Source: Pseudomonadota bacterium (GTDB taxonomy: Bacteria > Pseudomonadota > Alphaproteobacteria > Rhizobiales > Xanthobacteraceae). Taken from it: a stretch of DNA of 6,164 nucleotides. Positions 1 through 6,164 of this stretch are shown piece after piece (positions within the stretch are counted from its first letter, which is position 1; every line of letters starts with the position of its first letter). Both the position numbers and the translations under genes were made by a program. The stretch covers positions 1-6,164 of the forward strand of contig JAJYAH010000443.1 of the NCBI GenBank assembly GCA_021779635.1. The letters are read 5' to 3'. The notes beneath the pieces were generated by a model, which made no database searches, was not told the origin of the DNA, and saw only the letters and a program-made list of their open reading frames with translations.

Positions 1-1253
1 TCCGCATGAAGAAACCTGGTGCCGGCGAGCGGATCGGACGACGCCACGCTGTCCCGCTCCGTGCGCGACATCACCGGCGTCATGAGCTGCCGGAGCTCAT
101 CCCTGAGCCGACGCGCTTCCGCCACCTCCTCCATCAGTTCCGGGCGGCTTGCATCGGAATGGGCGGCGATGGCGCGCAGCTTGTCGCCAAATTCAGCAAA
201 GAGATCCCTTGCGCGATCGCGTGCGACCGAGCCGGCGAGAAACTCGATCAATTTCAGAAGCTCTGCGTGAGCAAGCGCGCCGCGCGCTTCTTCCCATCGC
301 GTTGTCAGATACGGATATGGCGTGGCGCTCAGTAGCAGGATCGCCGGAGGTCTGGCTGAGCCTTCAGGCTCCAGAAGCGCCTTCAGAAGCGGGTCTGCGT
401 CCTTCTCCTCAAGAAGCTGCCGGTAGCGCTGGAACTCGTCGAGAATGACGAGATCTGGCGGTTGATGCCGCAATGTCGCCAGCGCCAAAGCACGCCTTAG
501 GTGGCCCACGAAGGTGCCAGGCTTGAATTTCTCGACCTTCAGCTTGGCACACCCATGCAGTGCTAGATTAAGCATGGACTGTACGGTCGCTAGATCAAGC
601 ATGGAGCGTACGGTCTCGTCATACTTGGCCTTTAGCGCCTTGGAGAAATGGGCCTTCAACGCCCCACGACACTCGACTTCCAGCGTCTCACGAAATCTCT
701 GTCGCAAACCCGGTGGCGACGCCGCAAACCTCCTCTCAGCCTCCATGACGGCCCAGTCCCAGGAACCGCGAGCACTAAGCCGCAAGATGTCGGAATCGAG
801 ATCGCGGGCGAAGGCCGGATAGCTCTGTTCGAGCAGAACCTTCAGAAACGCCCGTTCTTCCTTGCGTCCGCCGGTCAGGCGAACCTTCGCGCCCGGAAAC
901 GAGGTCGCAGGGGTGAGCGCATAGATCAAAACCGGGGTGGCCGGTCGCTTCTCGACGGCGATCAGCGAAAGCCGATCGGGCGTCTTGATCGCATCCTGTA
1001 ATTGGGAGTCGCCGAGGAAGCCGACGACCCGGCTCTTGTTCTGGTGCGACACGGCGTGCCCATTGGCGATGTAATAGATGGTCAAAGGCCGGCGGCCGTC
1101 ATCGGCCATTCGGCGAGCCAGCTCCTTTGCCACGACGGTTTTTCCGAGCCCGACTTCATCGGCGACCAGAAAGCGCCGCCGCCCCCCAAAGTCCGCAAAG
1201 GCTGCAAACGCCGCATCGACGGTCGCCGTCTGAAACGGTTTGGGCGCGCTCAT
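1..1253 (-). CDS. SNF2/DEAD-type helicase, N-terminal half (3' end beyond window)
   Basis: The frame is open without a stop from an ATG at 1253-1251 to the window edge, giving 417 codons. Motifs by residue: a Q-motif-like FQ (7-8), Walker A ADEVGLGKT (31-39), a motif Ia-like segment (about 54-65), LTPATSF (about 113-119), Walker B with LDEF in place of DEAH (271-274), motif III SATPY (309-313), and PVMSRTERD (393-401) near the end of the first RecA-like lobe. Families with DEVGLGKT and SATP are SNF2-like ATPases that move along or remodel nucleic acid; the second lobe with motifs V and VI lies outside the window. The start codon overlaps the stop of the upstream PLD gene as ATGA, so translation is probably coupled. 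A short AGG about 6 bases upstream may serve as ribosome binding site. An in-frame 9-residue tandem repeat sits at 214-231. Inference: motor subunit of a defence-like complex. The family is certain; the substrate is unknown. Confidence 0.9.
   Translation of the reverse strand, partial: MSAPKPFQTATVDAAFAAFADFGGRRRFLVADEVGLGKTVVAKELARRMADDGRRPLTIYYIANGHAVSHQNKSRVVGFLGDSQLQDAIKTPDRLSLIAVEKRPATPVLIYALTPATSFPGAKVRLTGGRKEERAFLKVLLEQSYPAFARDLDSDILRLSARGSWDWAVMEAERRFAASPPGLRQRFRETLEVECRGALKAHFSKALKAKYDETVRSMLDLATVQSMLNLALHGCAKLKVEKFKPGTFVGHLRRALALATLRHQPPDLVILDEFQRYRQLLEEKDADPLLKALLEPEGSARPPAILLLSATPYPYLTTRWEEARGALAHAELLKLIEFLAGSVARDRARDLFAEFGDKLRAIAAHSDASRPELMEEVAEARRLRDELRQLMTPVMSRTERDSVASSDPLAGTRFLHA
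562..615 (-). repeat. 27-bp in-frame tandem duplication inside the helicase gene
   Basis: Units 562-588 and 589-615 match at 24 of 27 bases and lie head to tail. On the minus strand they encode TVRSMLDLA and TVQSMLNLA (helicase residues 214-222 and 223-231). The length is a multiple of three, so the frame is kept. The repeat lies between motif Ia and Walker B, in a segment that is probably helical. It looks like a fairly recent slippage duplication that has since gained three substitutions, two of which alter residues (R/Q and D/N). Confidence 0.9.
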
Positions 1254-3100
1254 GGACGCCTGCCTTTGATTTCGGCGACCCCGAGCCCGCTGCAGAGCTT
1301 GCCCCACAGATTATCGAAGCGGCGCAGCATATCCGCAGTCCGGGGATCCTCCTGTCTGGCCTCCTCAAGAACGGCAGGCAGATATTGGGATACTCGGCGC
1401 TCGATCTCGCGGAACTTCCCGGGATCGCGCGCCCAAGCCGCCAAGATTTCCTCCAATGTCGGCAGCGAGGAATCGAGCGCCGGATTCACACCTGGATCGG
1501 CCCGATCCCGTGGTTCGTCATTCGTCCAGTCGCCTTCACCCTCGCGCCCGTCGTCCGCCAGCAATCCCGCCAGCCACAAGAGGAACCCTCTGGCTCCCAG
1601 AAAGCGCACGAACGCCGCGCGGTCGCGATCTTCCCCAAATGGCGGGTCTGCGGGCGCGCGTTGCAGCCAGGAGAGCCCCTTTCCTCCGCGGCTGACACGC
1701 AGCCGCACGAACTCGCTCCGCTCCGCCGCAGCAATCGATCCCAGAGGCACGACGGTTTGCCCGCGGGGCCAGGCCGCCAGTTCGCCGTAGAGAGCGCCCA
1801 CCTCAAGCTCGATATCCGACTCGTCCGGGTGAGGACCGCCTGGATGGAGATCGGAAAGATGCGCGAGGCGCGCGCCCTCGTCGTCAAAGGCGAGTTGCGC
1901 CGCCCATCGAGCCGCGACCTGCGCGCGTGCGCGTTCGAGCGCCTCCTCCTCCAAGGCTGCGGCGTCGGGCGCATGTTCCACCAGGGGCGCCTCAACCAGC
2001 CGGGCCGAGCCGAGAAGTGCTCTCAGCCCTCTCTCGATCGGCTCTGTAACGACCAGCTCGGCGGTGACTTCGGCATTGCGGCCGGTCCAGGCGCGCATGG
2101 TCGCGTTCGCGCTACCGAGCCATAGCCGCCGCTTCTGTCCCGATCGCATGAACAGCAACTTCGCGTGAAGGCCACGGCCAAGTTCCTCTTCCTCGTCGTC
2201 AGCCGGATTACGGGAAGCCGCCGCCGCAATCTCTGCATCGGGCTCGGGGTCGCCGACAGGATAGTCCGGCGCATCCAGCGCGAGCAGATCGTCGAACGCC
2301 GCCAGCGCAGGACCAATCCGCTCGATCTCGCGCATTGTCGTCAACAGAACCCGGCGCGTTGGTTTTGACCCTTGTGGCGCTTGTCGGGCGAGGAAAGTCT
2401 TGTCGATGAACGGGCTCACCACCACGACTTCATCTGTTCCTGGCGGCGGCACGGGGACCGCCATATCTCCACTTCCCTCCGACCAGTGAAGCCGCTCGAC
2501 GCGCACGCCTGCCGGAGCGCGCCAAGCTACCTTTGCGACGGCAGCGCCCAATGAAACAGGCCGCACGCCTTTAAGCGCCGCTCTCTCGGCCAGCGCACGC
2601 GCCATTTCCTCCGCGCCTGGGATGGGAGCGCTCCCTTTCTCCCCAGATAGGAGCAGCAGTCCGATGTCCCGGTTCACATTTTCAGTGAGATTGCGGCTCC
2701 CGATCCAAAGGCGCCAGTCAGCCTTCCCGTCCGCATCGCGCGTGCGAACGAGCGCTGCCTTGGGATGCCAGCTATGGATCGCTTCATCGAAATCGACTTC
2801 GCGCACGAACTGGTCCAGAACCGCCGCGATGCGCGGTGTCCGTCGCATTTTCGCGAGGCGCCCTCGTTGGACGATGATGCGCACCCTTCCACGAAGGCGC
2901 TCAACCGCGTCGGCGAAGTCGGATGGGCTCCCACGGCCAGCATCTGTGTCCTTCCCGGCCAGGGCGAGCAGCGTCGCGCCAATCGATCCCAGATCCGCCG
3001 AATAGGAGGCCAGCAAGGCCAATTCGACATTCTCGTCGGGACCAGGGCGAAGACCCTCGAGAAACGAGAGCGCGGGCCAGTTGTCGACCGTCCCGCTCAT
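1250..3100 (-). CDS. Phospholipase D-like protein with two HKD motifs
   Basis: A 616-residue protein with ATG at 3100-3098 and TGA at 1252-1250. It has two PLD catalytic half-sites in one chain. The first has HPK (112-114) followed by GSRN (134-137). The second has HAK (312-314) followed by GSAN (329-332), with a downstream N-x-E (342-344). Two HxK...GSxN halves normally form one active site with a phospho-histidine intermediate, so phosphodiester cleavage of DNA or RNA is likely; lipid hydrolysis is less likely given the helicase next door. An acidic run (DDEEEE, 301-306) precedes the second half-site. Residues from about 380 to 616 match no domain I recognise. No signal peptide or membrane segment is seen, so it is probably cytoplasmic. 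The stop overlaps the helicase start as ATGA, and its own ATG overlaps the restored DUF6361 stop in the same way. DISARM also has a PLD protein (DrmC), but this one is not clearly the same. Family call firm, role inferred. Confidence 0.9.
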   Translation of the reverse strand: MSGTVDNWPALSFLEGLRPGPDENVELALLASYSADLGSIGATLLALAGKDTDAGRGSPSDFADAVERLRGRVRIIVQRGRLAKMRRTPRIAAVLDQFVREVDFDEAIHSWHPKAALVRTRDADGKADWRLWIGSRNLTENVNRDIGLLLLSGEKGSAPIPGAEEMARALAERAALKGVRPVSLGAAVAKVAWRAPAGVRVERLHWSEGSGDMAVPVPPPGTDEVVVVSPFIDKTFLARQAPQGSKPTRRVLLTTMREIERIGPALAAFDDLLALDAPDYPVGDPEPDAEIAAAASRNPADDEEEELGRGLHAKLLFMRSGQKRRLWLGSANATMRAWTGRNAEVTAELVVTEPIERGLRALLGSARLVEAPLVEHAPDAAALEEEALERARAQVAARWAAQLAFDDEGARLAHLSDLHPGGPHPDESDIELEVGALYGELAAWPRGQTVVPLGSIAAAERSEFVRLRVSRGGKGLSWLQRAPADPPFGEDRDRAAFVRFLGARGFLLWLAGLLADDGREGEGDWTNDEPRDRADPGVNPALDSSLPTLEEILAAWARDPGKFREIERRVSQYLPAVLEEARQEDPRTADMLRRFDNLWGKLCSGLGVAEIKGRRP

Positions 3101-4342
3101 TCGGCGCCCGCCAAATCGTCAAGGAGTGTGCTGACCTGTTCCCATCGATAGTGGAGGGGGCCAGCCAAACCATGCTCGTCGTTCGACCATTCGAGCCGCC
3201 GCGCGCGTCCGTTGGGCGTCAAGGGAAGCCGCGCACGAGGCCCCTTTCGGGCTTCGGCCGCCGCATAAACCCCGAATAGCGGCCGGGGGATCCCTCGATT
3301 TCGAAGCTATCCACTCCTTCGTCGCCGTCACGACGGCGCGCAACTTCAACGGCAGCGCGCCTATATCTACCTCAAGCGCCTCGACATCGAGTTTGGCCGC
3401 GATGGCGCCGTATTCGGCAACGGTCGAGACCAAGTGATCGCGATGCCGGGTTGACGCTTCCCTTTTGTCGTCGGTCTCGACGATATGTTCGAGGAGAGCG
3501 TCATAGATGGCACGGCCCACGCCGGCCAGATTGGCCGCCTGTTGCGCCCGCGCCAGCGGCGCCCGGTCCGAGCCGGCGATCGCACGGGTCTCGTCAGCCC
3601 ACATTCCCGGCGGCGACTCAGCCTCCGTCCGAACGAGGCGTGCGAGCAAAGAAAGCTCATGGCCTCCGCTGCCGCGCAATTGCACGAGGCGCTCGCGAAG
3701 AAAGGTGGCCTCCGCGGCCGCCAACCGGAGAGTGATCAATCCACCGTTCCAGCCAGCCGGACGCTCGGGTAGCGGGACGAACGGCGGATCGAAGCCGAGG
3801 AGTGGCTGTCCGTCGTCATCGGTCGCCGCGCTGACGCTCTTCAGCAGTCTATGTGCCTGCGCTCGAGAGATCGTCCGCCCGTCCAGACGCGGGCGCAGGA
3901 TTCCCCACACCGCGAGCGCATTCCAATAAACGGTCGATGGCGGCTGACTGGACGGTTTGGGAAAGACACGACCGCCGATCACCTGGGATTCTCCAGCTTC
4001 CCGGAGCCGCCCGGCAAGCACCCTTTCGCGTTCGCGTAGGGCACGATCAGCCGTCGGCCCCGTCAGGCCGGCGAGGTCCTCAAACAACCATGGTACGAAG
4101 ATCGCGTAACGCGCCCGCGTGTGCAGGACCGATGTGCCTGGGAAGAAATGATCGGCATAACGCTGATGGATGGTCAGAAAGCCGATCTCGTCGCGCACGC
4201 CCATGGATTCTTCGTCCATTTGCGCCTTGGCGCGGGCCAGCGCCTCGCGGGACAAATAGGCCCACCCCAAGGCCGGCTCGACGTGCGTAGCCCGTCGCGC
4301 CTGCGGTGATCTCGTAGGCGGAGGCACCGCAGTCAGCCCCAC
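3097..4342 (-). pseudogene. DUF6361 family protein, frameshifted near its 3' end
   Basis: The main frame runs from a GTG at 4342 to a TGA at 3121-3119 (407 codons). Conserved DUF6361-like features are GWAYLS (26-31), RDEIG (50-54), FFPGTS (66-71), HTRARY (74-79) and FVPW (82-85). The family has no known biochemical function. After about residue 357 the main frame becomes implausible and ends PPPLSMGTGQHTP. The +1 frame instead reads VYAAAEARKGPRARLPLTPN and goes on to LHYRWEQVSTLLDDLAGAE, ending in a TGA at 3099-3097 that forms ATGA with the PLD start. I infer one extra base, probably in the C4 run at 3270-3273 or the G5 run at 3285-3289; the repaired protein would be about 414 residues. The error could be real or from sequencing. 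The start is also unsure: GTG 4342 overlaps the ATPase stop, GTG 4327 lies five bases past it, and TTG 4270 would place GW right at the N-terminus. None has a strong ribosome binding site. Confidence 0.8.
3262..3309 (-). other. Probable site of the DUF6361 frameshift
   Basis: On the minus strand the sensible protein sequence leaves the main frame around ATT CGG GGT and continues one base later as GTT TAT GCG GCG GCC. The +1 frame has a TAG at 3309-3307, so the switch must lie downstream of it. Two homopolymers fall in the interval: C5 on the minus strand (3289-3285) and G4 (3273-3270). Removing one base from the G run gives AAIR-VYAAAEA; removing one from the C run gives DPRPLFGVYAAAEA. The first seems the more natural join. 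Confidence 0.75.
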
Positions 4343-5553
4343 AAAGACGACAGGGGCGCTGCTGCCAACCGATCGCCAAACGGCACGACGTCGATGCTGT
4401 CATAGAGGACGACGCCGAAGGCGAAGCGGTCCCCGCAAGCCTCCGCGAATGCTCGCAGACCCGAGAAGTCCCCAGCTTTGACAGTGGCGCTAGCCTTGAC
4501 CTCGATGCCCACGATCATCCCGTCATCGCGCTCCAGCACGATGTCGACCTCGCGCATGTCCCGATCCCGGAAATGATACGGCGTCAGGCGCATATCCGAA
4601 GCCGTCAGCAGCTTCAGCACCTCCGAGAACACGAAGCTCTCTAGCAGCGCACCAAACGTCCCGCGATCCGCCCGGACCCTGTCTGAGGTGAGCCCGCGCG
4701 CGGCCGCCAGCACGCCGGAATCGAGGAAATGCAGTTTGGGTGTCTTGACGATCCGCTTCAGTGCATTGGTGAACCAGGGCTGTACCGTCGCGATCAGGAA
4801 CACCTGTTCGAGCAGGCCCACATAGCGCTGCCCCGTCTTGTGACTGACGTTGATCGCGCCGCCGAATTGCGAATAATTGACCAACTGGCTGGAATGCTCG
4901 GCCAGCAGCCGCACGAATTTCGGAAGCTCGGTCAGCTTTTCGATGTCGGCGATGTCCCGTAGATCGCGGGTCAGGATCGAGGTGAGATAAGAGCGTGCCC
5001 AGTCCTGTCGGCGCCGCTCGTTGTCACGGCTGATCGCTTCGGGGAAGCCTCCACGCAGCACGAGCTGGACAAGATCATCGCCGACGATTGCGTTCCGTTG
5101 GCCTTGTAGCTTTCCGTCGAAAAGGTGCTCCACAAAAGTCGGCGCTCGCCCCTCGATCTCAGCCTTTGCCAGCGGCAGCATCTGGATGGTCTCCATCCGG
5201 CCAGCGAGGCTGTCGGCGATCCGCGGCAGGGTCAGCACATTCGCCGAACCAGTGAGCAGAAAGCGGCCCGGGCGGTAGTCCTCATCAACCGTCTTCTTGA
5301 TCGCCAGCAGAAGGTCGGGCACGCGCTGAATTTCGTCGATGATGGCCCGGTCCAGGCCCCGGATGAAACCGACGGGATCGGACTGCGCAGCCTCGAGGAC
5401 GGTCTGATCGTCGAGCGTGATATACGTTCGACCAGCTTCGCCCATCTTTCGAACAAGCGTGGTCTTGCCGGCCCGGCGCGGCCCAACCACCAGGACCACT
5501 GGCGTATCCGAAAGGGCCTCCTTCGCCCGCCGCTCCACAAACCGCTCGAACAT
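4333..5553 (-). CDS. AAA_14/DUF4143 family ATP-binding protein
   Basis: A 406-residue protein starting at ATG 5553-5551 and ending at TGA 4335-4333. The start MFERFVERR is typical of the family and has GGGGA (5562-5558) four bases upstream; the frame stays open to 5826, but the extension is non-coding in character. Visible parts: Walker A GPRRAGKT (24-31), Walker B AIIDEIQ (70-76), the sensor-like TGSAN (101-105), then a C-terminal DUF4143 region with LESFVFSE (304-311). REVDIVLE (334-341) and IEVKAS (350-355) give a D337...E351-x-K353 pattern like the PD-(D/E)xK nuclease fold. Such proteins are widespread, often on mobile or accessory DNA, and mostly uncharacterised. The C-terminus (PLSSLWG) looks complete. 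The gene abuts or overlaps DUF6361 on the same strand, so co-transcription is likely; whether it acts with the downstream genes is not known. It could instead be an independent cargo gene. Confidence 0.9.
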   Translation of the reverse strand: MFERFVERRAKEALSDTPVVLVVGPRRAGKTTLVRKMGEAGRTYITLDDQTVLEAAQSDPVGFIRGLDRAIIDEIQRVPDLLLAIKKTVDEDYRPGRFLLTGSANVLTLPRIADSLAGRMETIQMLPLAKAEIEGRAPTFVEHLFDGKLQGQRNAIVGDDLVQLVLRGGFPEAISRDNERRRQDWARSYLTSILTRDLRDIADIEKLTELPKFVRLLAEHSSQLVNYSQFGGAINVSHKTGQRYVGLLEQVFLIATVQPWFTNALKRIVKTPKLHFLDSGVLAAARGLTSDRVRADRGTFGALLESFVFSEVLKLLTASDMRLTPYHFRDRDMREVDIVLERDDGMIVGIEVKASATVKAGDFSGLRAFAEACGDRFAFGVVLYDSIDVVPFGDRLAAAPLSSLWG

Positions 5554-5574
5554 GCCATCCCCGAGTCCCGGACG

Positions 5575-5626
5575 ATTGGAACCGTAGTTCTCGGCTAATT
5601 GGAAGTCAATGATCCGCCAATTGGAA
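5575..5626 (-). repeat. Three TTCCAAT direct repeats, operator-like
   Basis: TTCCAAT (ATTGGAA on plus) occurs at 5575-5581, 5598-5604 and 5620-5626, all in one orientation with start-to-start distances of 23 and 22 bases, close to two helical turns. The two upstream copies extend to a shared 10-mer, ACTTCCAATT (5597-5606 and 5619-5628). The copies flank and sit between the candidate -35 and -10, which is the arrangement expected of binding sites for a regulator sitting on one DNA face. No regulator gene is visible in the window. Confidence 0.5.
5581..5609 (-). promoter_or_regulatory. Candidate promoter for the minus-strand operon
   Basis: Read on the minus strand, TTGACT (5609-5604) is followed after exactly 17 bases by TACGGT (5586-5581). 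The -35 is a near-perfect match to TTGACA; the -10 keeps only T, A and the final T of TATAAT. Transcription would begin near 5574, leaving a leader of about 20 bases before the ATPase start at 5553. No better candidate was seen between the two divergent genes. It would drive the ATPase and, if no internal promoter exists, DUF6361, PLD and helicase. Confidence 0.4.
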
Positions 5627-5655
5627 GTGTCTGGATCGCTATCTAGGAGCCGGAA

Positions 5656-5724
5656 GGGGAAGGCCTTCCCCCTGGCCGGCGCCATGGTCGCCGGCGCACC
5701 CCTTTCTGCGGGGAGATCCCCGCA
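5656..5724. repeat. Cluster of three hairpins between the divergent genes
   Basis: There are three inverted repeats in a row. First, a perfect 16-base palindrome, GGGGAAGG/CCTTCCCC (5656-5671). Second, GCCGGCG (5675-5681) pairing with CGCCGGC (5689-5695) around a loop that itself contains CCATGG. Third, TGCGGGG (5707-5713) pairing with CCCCGCA (5718-5724) around AGAT. The third is followed on plus, eight bases later, by TTTT, so a weak terminator or attenuator in front of the ArdC-like gene is possible. Protein binding sites, or a recombination or origin-like structure of the mobile element, are alternatives. The pairing is certain; the function is not. Confidence 0.6.
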
Positions 5725-5801
5725 ACGCCCCCTTTTAGAGCGAGAGTGCGTACCGGGTTTGCCGTGACGGGTTGAAGGTTGGAGGAGAGGCCTCCGGCGC
5801 C

Positions 5802-5821
5802 CGTCGCGGAGACCCGCGATG
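5802..5821 (+). promoter_or_regulatory. Hairpin covering the ArdC Shine-Dalgarno and start codon
   Basis: CGTCGCGG (5802-5809) can pair with CCGCGATG (5814-5821) as an 8-bp stem with one G-U pair and the tetraloop AGAC (5810-5813). The Shine-Dalgarno GGAG (5808-5811) is half in the stem and half in the loop, and the whole ATG (5819-5821) is in the stem. This could hold translation low until melted, for example by a protein or by single-stranded transfer conditions. The regulatory role is inferred. Confidence 0.45.
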
Positions 5822-6164
5822 TCCAAGCACCGCCACGAGGCCGGCCCTGGCCGCGCCAGCCTTTACGACGAGATCACGACCAAGATCATCAGCGAGCTGG
5901 AGGCTGGGCGGCTGCCCTGGGTCCAGCCTTGGGGCACGGCCGCGGCGAAGGCGCCGCCCGCCATGCCGAGGAACGCCGCCACCGGACGGCAGTATTCCGG
6001 GATCAATGTGCTGATCCTCTGGGGGGCGGTCATCTCCCAGGGATATTCAGGCCAAAGCTGGCTGACGTTCCGCCAGGCGCTCGCGCTCGGCGGCAACGTG
6101 CGCAAGGGGGAGCACGGAACGACCGTCGTTTACGCCGACCGTTTCGTGCCAGACGACGAGAAGA
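5819..6164 (+). CDS. ArdC-like anti-restriction protein, N-terminal part (3' end beyond window)
   Basis: ATG at 5819, with GGAG (5808-5811) seven bases upstream, opens a frame of 115 codons that runs off the window. The sequence has the hallmarks of the ArdC N-terminal domain (DUF1738): LYDEIT (15-20), an amphipathic stretch ending ELEAGRLPWVQPW (26-38), RNAATGRQYSGINVLILW (51-68), SWLTFRQAL (80-88) and GGNVRKGEHGTTVVY (91-105). In the family this domain binds single-stranded DNA and is followed by a zincin-like metallopeptidase domain with HExxH, which would lie outside the window. ArdC proteins are carried by conjugative plasmids and integrative elements and protect incoming DNA from host restriction. 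It is transcribed away from the minus-strand operon, across the hairpin-rich intergenic region. Similar proteins are sometimes labelled simply as zincin-like metallopeptidases. No HExxH can be checked here, so the full domain set is inferred. Confidence 0.9.
   Translation, partial: MSKHRHEAGPGRASLYDEITTKIISELEAGRLPWVQPWGTAAAKAPPAMPRNAATGRQYSGINVLILWGAVISQGYSGQSWLTFRQALALGGNVRKGEHGTTVVYADRFVPDDEK

Follow-up and report, generated by a model that had tools for sequence, protein, structure and literature searches.

Azaca, an anti-phage system, is named with ZacC as its helicase component in a passage of one article (PMC12278908) and is entered with a phospholipase D (PLD)-like domain in a table that cites Millman et al. 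2022 (PMC10952713); its mechanism is given as 'Unknown' in the table of a 2026 review (PMC12926258). Part of a report on CglI describes a PLD nuclease and a superfamily 2 (SF2) ATPase that form a complex, in which cutting needs nucleoside triphosphate (NTP) hydrolysis (PMC5737866), and excerpts on Gabija and Hachiman speak of licensing by phage proteins that block RecBCD (PMC12407980) and of a response to damaged DNA (PMC12278908), respectively. Our study concerns a stretch of 6,164 nucleotides from a bacterium of the Xanthobacteraceae (assembly GCA_021779635.1, contig JAJYAH010000443.1), referred to in full as the window, in which a run of minus-strand genes encodes a DUF6361 protein, a two-motif PLD-fold protein and an SF2 helicase, the reading frames overlapping by 4 bases (ATGA). 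We consider it likely that this run represents the Azaca operon zacA-zacB-zacC, in a copy that has its closest counterparts in Alphaproteobacteria, lies beside an ArdC-like gene and has a broken zacA. ZacA and ZacB are taken here to be the components of Azaca other than ZacC.

All three window proteins match PADLOC Zac models, and their genes are adjacent in the order A-B-C. The ZacA match (PDLC03828, E 4.3e-75) covers residues 23-351 of a protein whose C-terminus is out of frame; ZacB (PDLC03829, E 4.7e-117) has the catalytic residues H112, K114, N137, H312, K314 and N332; and the ZacC match (PDLC03830, E 4.4e-99) spans profile positions 5-372 of 1019 in a gene that is cut at the window start. 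A preliminary description of this DNA had proposed a candidate, that is unnamed, defence system and had given a match to a system with a name as grounds for discarding this; such matches exist for all three genes, and the proposal is rejected. What it had read of the layout is borne out by the open reading frames: the three genes are consecutive on the minus strand, the PLD and helicase genes share an ATGA at 1253-1250, and the stop of the out-of-frame zacA tail overlaps the zacB start in a second ATGA at 3100-3097, as it had said of a repaired frame. DUF6361, said there to have no known role, remains so in mechanism and has a name as the component ZacA; three canonical DUF6361 proteins (L086-L088) match the PADLOC ZacA model at E 3e-119 to 2e-132. 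In the papers searched there is no mention of 'DUF6361', and none of those listed for Azaca and phage carries Azaca in its title. The features of the window are as follows.

1..1253, minus strand: zacC, SF2 (SNF2/RapA-like) helicase; N-terminal ~417 residues, the remainder past window position 1
1250..3100, minus strand: zacB, PLD-superfamily phosphodiesterase/nuclease, 616 residues, complete
3097..4342, minus strand: zacA (DUF6361; Pfam 3.4e-16), broken frame; main frame 4342-3119, C-terminal segment in another frame at 3306-3097
4333..5826, minus strand: AAA_14/DUF4143 ATPase (PDC-S01, a single-gene candidate of PADLOC); an accessory gene that immediately precedes zacA
5819..6163, plus strand: ArdC-like antirestriction gene, N-terminal domain (Pfam ArdcN, E 5.3e-38), cut by the window end

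The association of the three genes is conserved well beyond this locus. An alignment scan of genome contigs with ZacB returned 101 relatives; among the best 80, which were kept, 77 carry ZacA and 74 carry ZacC, in keeping with the co-occurrence that the preliminary description had put forward for checking. The loci that lack ZacA are L029, L078 and L079, and those that lack ZacC are L009, L067, L068 and L080, where contigs end, together with L078 and L079, which hold a ZacB fragment only. Across 86 records (the 80 loci, five plasmid loci and the window), the A-B junction is a 4-base overlap in 66 of 83 cases and the B-C junction in 70 of 80, counted with no chance model. Two genome draws made independently of operon structure, with only 2 to 4 candidates scored per genome, gave DUF6361 in 5 of 398 Pseudomonadota genomes, where it adjoins ZacB in all five, and, for the draw within the class, ZacB in 7 of 385 genomes; ZacA and ZacB are adjacent in each of the 11 distinct Zac genomes of both draws, and ZacC is at least partly seen in all 11 (the starting genome, G001, occurs in both draws, and G474 is the genome of L012). 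By record titles and tree the hosts are Pseudomonadota, Acidobacteriota, Planctomycetota, Verrucomicrobiota and Chloroflexota, many of them metagenome bins, and the gene order is kept across these phyla, which together with the three PADLOC matches supports the earlier claim of a defence module whose coupled genes act together.

Host families are intermixed in the ZacB tree, as expected of mobile defence genes. The window ZacB clusters with L006-L010 (Roseomonas, Neoroseomonas, Paracoccus, Reyranella and Rhizorhabdus), the highest identity being 91% with L010. The ArdC-like gene that had been noted nearby is present and suggests mobile DNA surroundings. Some copies elsewhere are damaged or cut, with ZacB in two frames in L027/L028 and a partial ZacC in several loci. 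L078 and L079 (9986-10747, Brevundimonas) carry about the first 240 ZacB profile positions without ZacA or ZacC and are Azaca remnants; in L085 (9860-12811) a single frame joins ZacB profile positions 5-454 to ZacC positions 535-995, apparently a fusion made by deletion in frame. In L001, L019, L021, L022 and L036, the region ~1.6-1.7 kb downstream of Zac holds a very large helicase gene (L001:18681-23903, 1740 residues) or a relative of it.

The zacA frame of the window is interrupted near its end. Its main frame holds profile positions 2-337 and leaves the family near position 337, and positions 335-396 are found in the other frame (E 4e-25). This displaced tail corresponds to the conserved last 60 residues; of the 37 columns that are invariant among 44 aligned sequences, 10 fall within it. 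Close relatives of the window copy have an intact zacA, and a programmed frameshift was rejected on the single unbroken frame in L006-L010. From this one sequence the break may be either a mutation or a sequencing error; the window copy is probably inactive unless the break is such an error. In L004 (10790-12004), on a plasmid of B. elkanii (the one examined of four such records), zacA is split by an in-frame stop (profile 345/348) at approximately the same place, for which we have no account beyond coincidence or tolerance.

The close-packed run extends past the three genes to the ATPase upstream, which matches Pfam DUF4143 (1.8e-43) and AAA_14 (1.2e-24) and, over residues 91-496, PDC-S01 (E 1.3e-171). 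Its true start is uncertain, an ATG at 5553 agreeing with the profile match; it ends at 4333, and zacA may start either 9 bases ahead of its last base or 6 bases past it. The gene immediately precedes zacA in the window and in L006-L010, L015, L016 and L094, and is reduced to remnants beside a whole zacA in L001, L011 and L012 (whose contig is also that of L125), which rules it out as an obligate partner; it is an accessory. Near relatives of the ATPase gene lie on Rhizobium plasmids, and none of the 10 plasmid records with ZacB is from Rhizobium.

The preliminary description of the middle gene as a two-HKD protein holds in that a motif is present in both halves of ZacB, but this reads HxK...GSxN with no conserved Asp at K+5 and is not strictly HKD. 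In the first half H, K, G, S and N are present in all 45 alignment rows; in the second, H, K and G are present in 45 of 45, and S and N in 44 with one gap. Foldseek and VIA-align both support a PLD fold, beyond which the model has an extra region after residue 385. Tdp1 is the top Foldseek match (E 3e-7) and the motif lacks the Asp, yet a Tdp1-type assignment was rejected, as VIA-align gives an equal or higher Z to Vaccinia F13, a phospholipase D, PLD4 and phosphatidylserine synthase; only the superfamily level is therefore supported. The visible part of ZacC has the DEVGLGKT Walker A (1160-1137) and SATP (329-318) motifs noted earlier and also DEFQ (440-429), and the window helicase has no Pfam match at E 1e-3. 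A full-length relative in L001 shows likeness, below the models' cut-offs, to DrmD (2e-14) and DpdE (1e-13), and also to RapA. In Sphingomonas NIC1 (L003:13838-17590) ZacC has 1250 residues, its match to the family profile stops at position 664, and its C-terminal half looks replaced. ZacA is predicted to be all-helical.

These features suggest a model for the activity of Azaca. An SF2 motor and a PLD phosphodiesterase encoded by overlapping genes may, as in CglI, form one DNA-processing machine in which ZacC would act as an ATP-driven DNA motor that delivers or licenses ZacB on invading DNA. Enzymes of the PLD superfamily act through a covalent histidine intermediate, and ZacB could cut DNA in this way as a PLD-fold phosphodiesterase. 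ZacA is the best candidate for a sensor or adaptor that might recognize the target or bridge ZacB and ZacC, a role that is a guess given that its fold search gave no convincing match. We propose that self DNA is probably spared by its state (ends, replication intermediates, bound proteins or modification) and not by a protective methyl mark, because no methyltransferase is seen in the operon.

A comparison with the described systems places the window closest to Azaca itself, with all three components, their order and overlaps, the PLD-like domain and the SF2 helicase in common; it differs in its broken zacA and in the accessory DUF4143 ATPase upstream, the comparison being with the PADLOC models. 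CglI, like NgoAVII, shares the division into a PLD nuclease (R) and a separate SF2 ATPase (H/N), whereas R.CglI has a B3-like DNA-binding domain and a defined cut site, and the part of the report at hand names no ZacA-like third subunit (PMC5737866). ZacB has no B3-like Pfam match, although the fold search barely covered the region after residue 385. Gabija and Hachiman are likewise nuclease-helicase defences, with two genes and other nuclease families. DISARM also contains a PLD protein and an SNF2-like helicase, and the preliminary description was right, as far as the window shows, to set it apart: among the five proteins of the 6164-base window neither DrmA nor the DUF1998 protein DrmB has a PADLOC match, and Pfam finds no methyltransferase domain in the sequence up to window position 1. 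The Dpd models give a single short DpdE match of 27 residues (E 1.3e-5, 25 bits against a cut-off of 500), no other Dpd model being matched among the five proteins. The PADLOC matches include none under a Mko name (MkoA, MkoB or MkoC of Mokosh), in a library that may or may not contain such models.

Azaca recurs near an AddA-like UvrD-nuclease gene, often together with one encoding an AddB-like PD-(D/E)XK protein, RadD-like SF2 helicase or WYL regulator. In L006, L007 and L010 and, as a fragment, in L008, which are four of the five loci nearest to the window, zacC is followed by a convergent RadD-like helicase gene, while L009, the fifth, stops within the operon; a like layout is predicted past window position 1. 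A neighbour scan compared case sources (85 loci, L001-L085, the regions L086-L094 and the window) with controls (L095-L114), and found seed-related UvrD-type genes in 30 case sources against 1 of 20 controls and RadD-like helicases in 19 against 0 of 20; its queries were taken from case loci, which favours the cases, some sources overlap (L089 lies within L006, L086 within L091 and L090 within L094), the near-copies L012/L013 and L027/L028 were retained, and the UvrD matches of L011, L014 and L072 are distant or cut. With profile models built from the same seeds, an AddA-like gene is present in 29 of the 85 loci and accompanied by an AddB-like gene in 16; for the 55 loci that reach 18 kb or more, the counts are 21 and 11. 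Among the 11 drawn Zac genomes an AddA-like gene lies within 10 kb in six (G001, G211, G337, G575, G663 and G444), against 1 of 20 control regions drawn from 20 Zac genomes mostly outside the 11 (Fisher one-sided p 0.0036, or 0.0088 without G001, ignoring kinship and the origin of the seeds in Zac loci). It was not seen in ~20 kb read from G178 and G247, nor in G474, G478 and G678, where contigs end nearby. The SF2 helicase is found in 7 of 24 Zac genomes, which include other classes and phyla and had all candidates scored, against 1 of 384 genomes of the class with G001 set aside, scored for 2 candidates each (p 7.5e-9, or 1.1e-7 without G001, with the same factors ignored).

The history of this module appears distinct from that of its neighbour. 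Between L006 and L055 the SF2 helicase and the AddA-like protein are 82% and 91% identical, against 43%, 36% and 44% for ZacA, ZacB and ZacC; the module is upstream on the same strand in one lineage and downstream and convergent in the other, each arrangement forming one group of the ZacB tree. L124 (8408-17890) carries WYL, AddB-like, AddA-like and SF2 genes without Zac and is collinear with L006 to either side of a gap, within which the whole of ZacABC and the greater part of the ATPase are missing. By these comparisons of relatives, the module is one that moves independently of Azaca. AddB-AddA-ZacABC runs occur in L091, L126 and L127. A WYL gene accompanies the first two, diverging in L126 from AddB-AddA-ZacA-ZacB-ZacC, and L127 has no WYL match in the stretch examined; one study places about half of the BrxR-type WYL regulators alongside known defence systems (PMC9122601). 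With an E limit of 1e-8, the two AddB-like proteins scanned have no PADLOC match; the UvrD and SF2 proteins give only generic GajB, RTasHel or PbeA matches. The flanking genes, 132 case and 140 control from a simple gene caller, were reduced to 5 per locus and 100 in each set; 193 PADLOC families were matched in the case genes, where GajB-type UvrD models hit at most 7 members, and 75 in the control genes, with GajB in 1 and also PD-T4-6, mads and kinase models, figures that count families and not members with any match and so give no overall measure of enrichment. Pfam was applied to the case flanks. Literature searches listed nothing on the joint arrangement, judged by title or abstract opening.

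Several points weigh against identifying the window as an Azaca copy of the kind modelled here. The step from the PADLOC 'Zac' names to 'Azaca' depends on the one passage on ZacC (PMC12278908) and, for ZacA and ZacB, on background knowledge; the anti-phage function of the window copy and its relatives is a prediction; the C-terminal part of ZacC is outside the window and the fold search left ZacA with no convincing match; and a modelled PLD fold is no proof of DNA cleavage, since enzymes of lipid metabolism and further proteins that are not nucleases are among the best aligned folds. A serious contender, to which we give a little under even weight, is that the window holds no working system but the remnant of a decaying defence locus on mobile DNA. 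The frame break, the ZacB fragments of L078/L079 and the in-frame stop of L004 all fit it, but zacB and the part of zacC within the window have open frames, and conservation persists in the zacA tail (E 4e-25), so that the break is recent or an error. We regard it as very improbable that the operon derives from DISARM or Dpd by loss of the methyltransferase and the DUF1998 partner. The resemblance of the L001 ZacC to DrmD and DpdE would fit such an origin, although it falls far under their cut-offs, as would the drmA-drmB genes beside ZacABC in L092 (E 4e-258 and 1e-79) and near it in L034; DrmA/DrmB relatives occur, however, in only 2 scanned case sources, ZacB continues past the PLD fold, and we know of no ZacA counterpart in DISARM or Dpd. 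In position, drmA-drmB occupies L092:1-4913 (plus strand), convergent with ZacABC, and L034:2624-8106 (plus strand), ~0.7 kb upstream on the same strand.

A type IV-like restriction of modified phage DNA, like that of SauUSI, which also combines PLD and helicase, would make ZacA the reader of the modification; we think this unlikely, as Pfam detects DUF6361 alone in ZacA and no modified-base reader domain, its fold search having given no convincing match, and an amino acid:DNA transferase (ADDT) gene lies near zacA in one genome, which would be risky for such a system if host DNA were modified. This gene (PF18724; L048:5531-6451, plus strand, G017) is ~2.3 kb upstream of zacA; ADDT genes occur in 3 of 24 Zac genomes and near Zac only in G017. 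It is also possible, if rather doubtful, that Azaca serves as the effector arm within a larger operon for end sensing, whose AddA/AddB/RadD-like partners process or survey linear ends, Zac acting upon their failure. The frequency of AddA-like genes in the drawn genomes, the AddB-AddA-ZacABC runs with their WYL genes and the licensing of Gabija described in part of one source (PMC12407980) are consistent with this; against it, no AddA-like gene was seen in 5 of the 11 drawn genomes or in the stretch examined of 56 of the 85 loci, and the module also exists without Zac (L124).

The Azaca assignment, which we prefer, means that the window adds one damaged copy of an already named system, and the survey ties DUF6361 to ZacA. 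From its relatives, and not from the window, we tentatively suggest, with confidence well short of even, that Azaca may be the exchangeable effector half of a composite operon, in which a module of WYL, AddB-like, AddA-like and often RadD-like genes shuttles among divergent Azaca lineages and also stands alone; the two halves would jointly police DNA ends, with Azaca firing when a phage blocks end processing. The recurrent, exchangeable AddA/AddB/RadD-like neighbour offers a concrete and testable lead, that of end sensing coupled to RecBCD/AddAB status.
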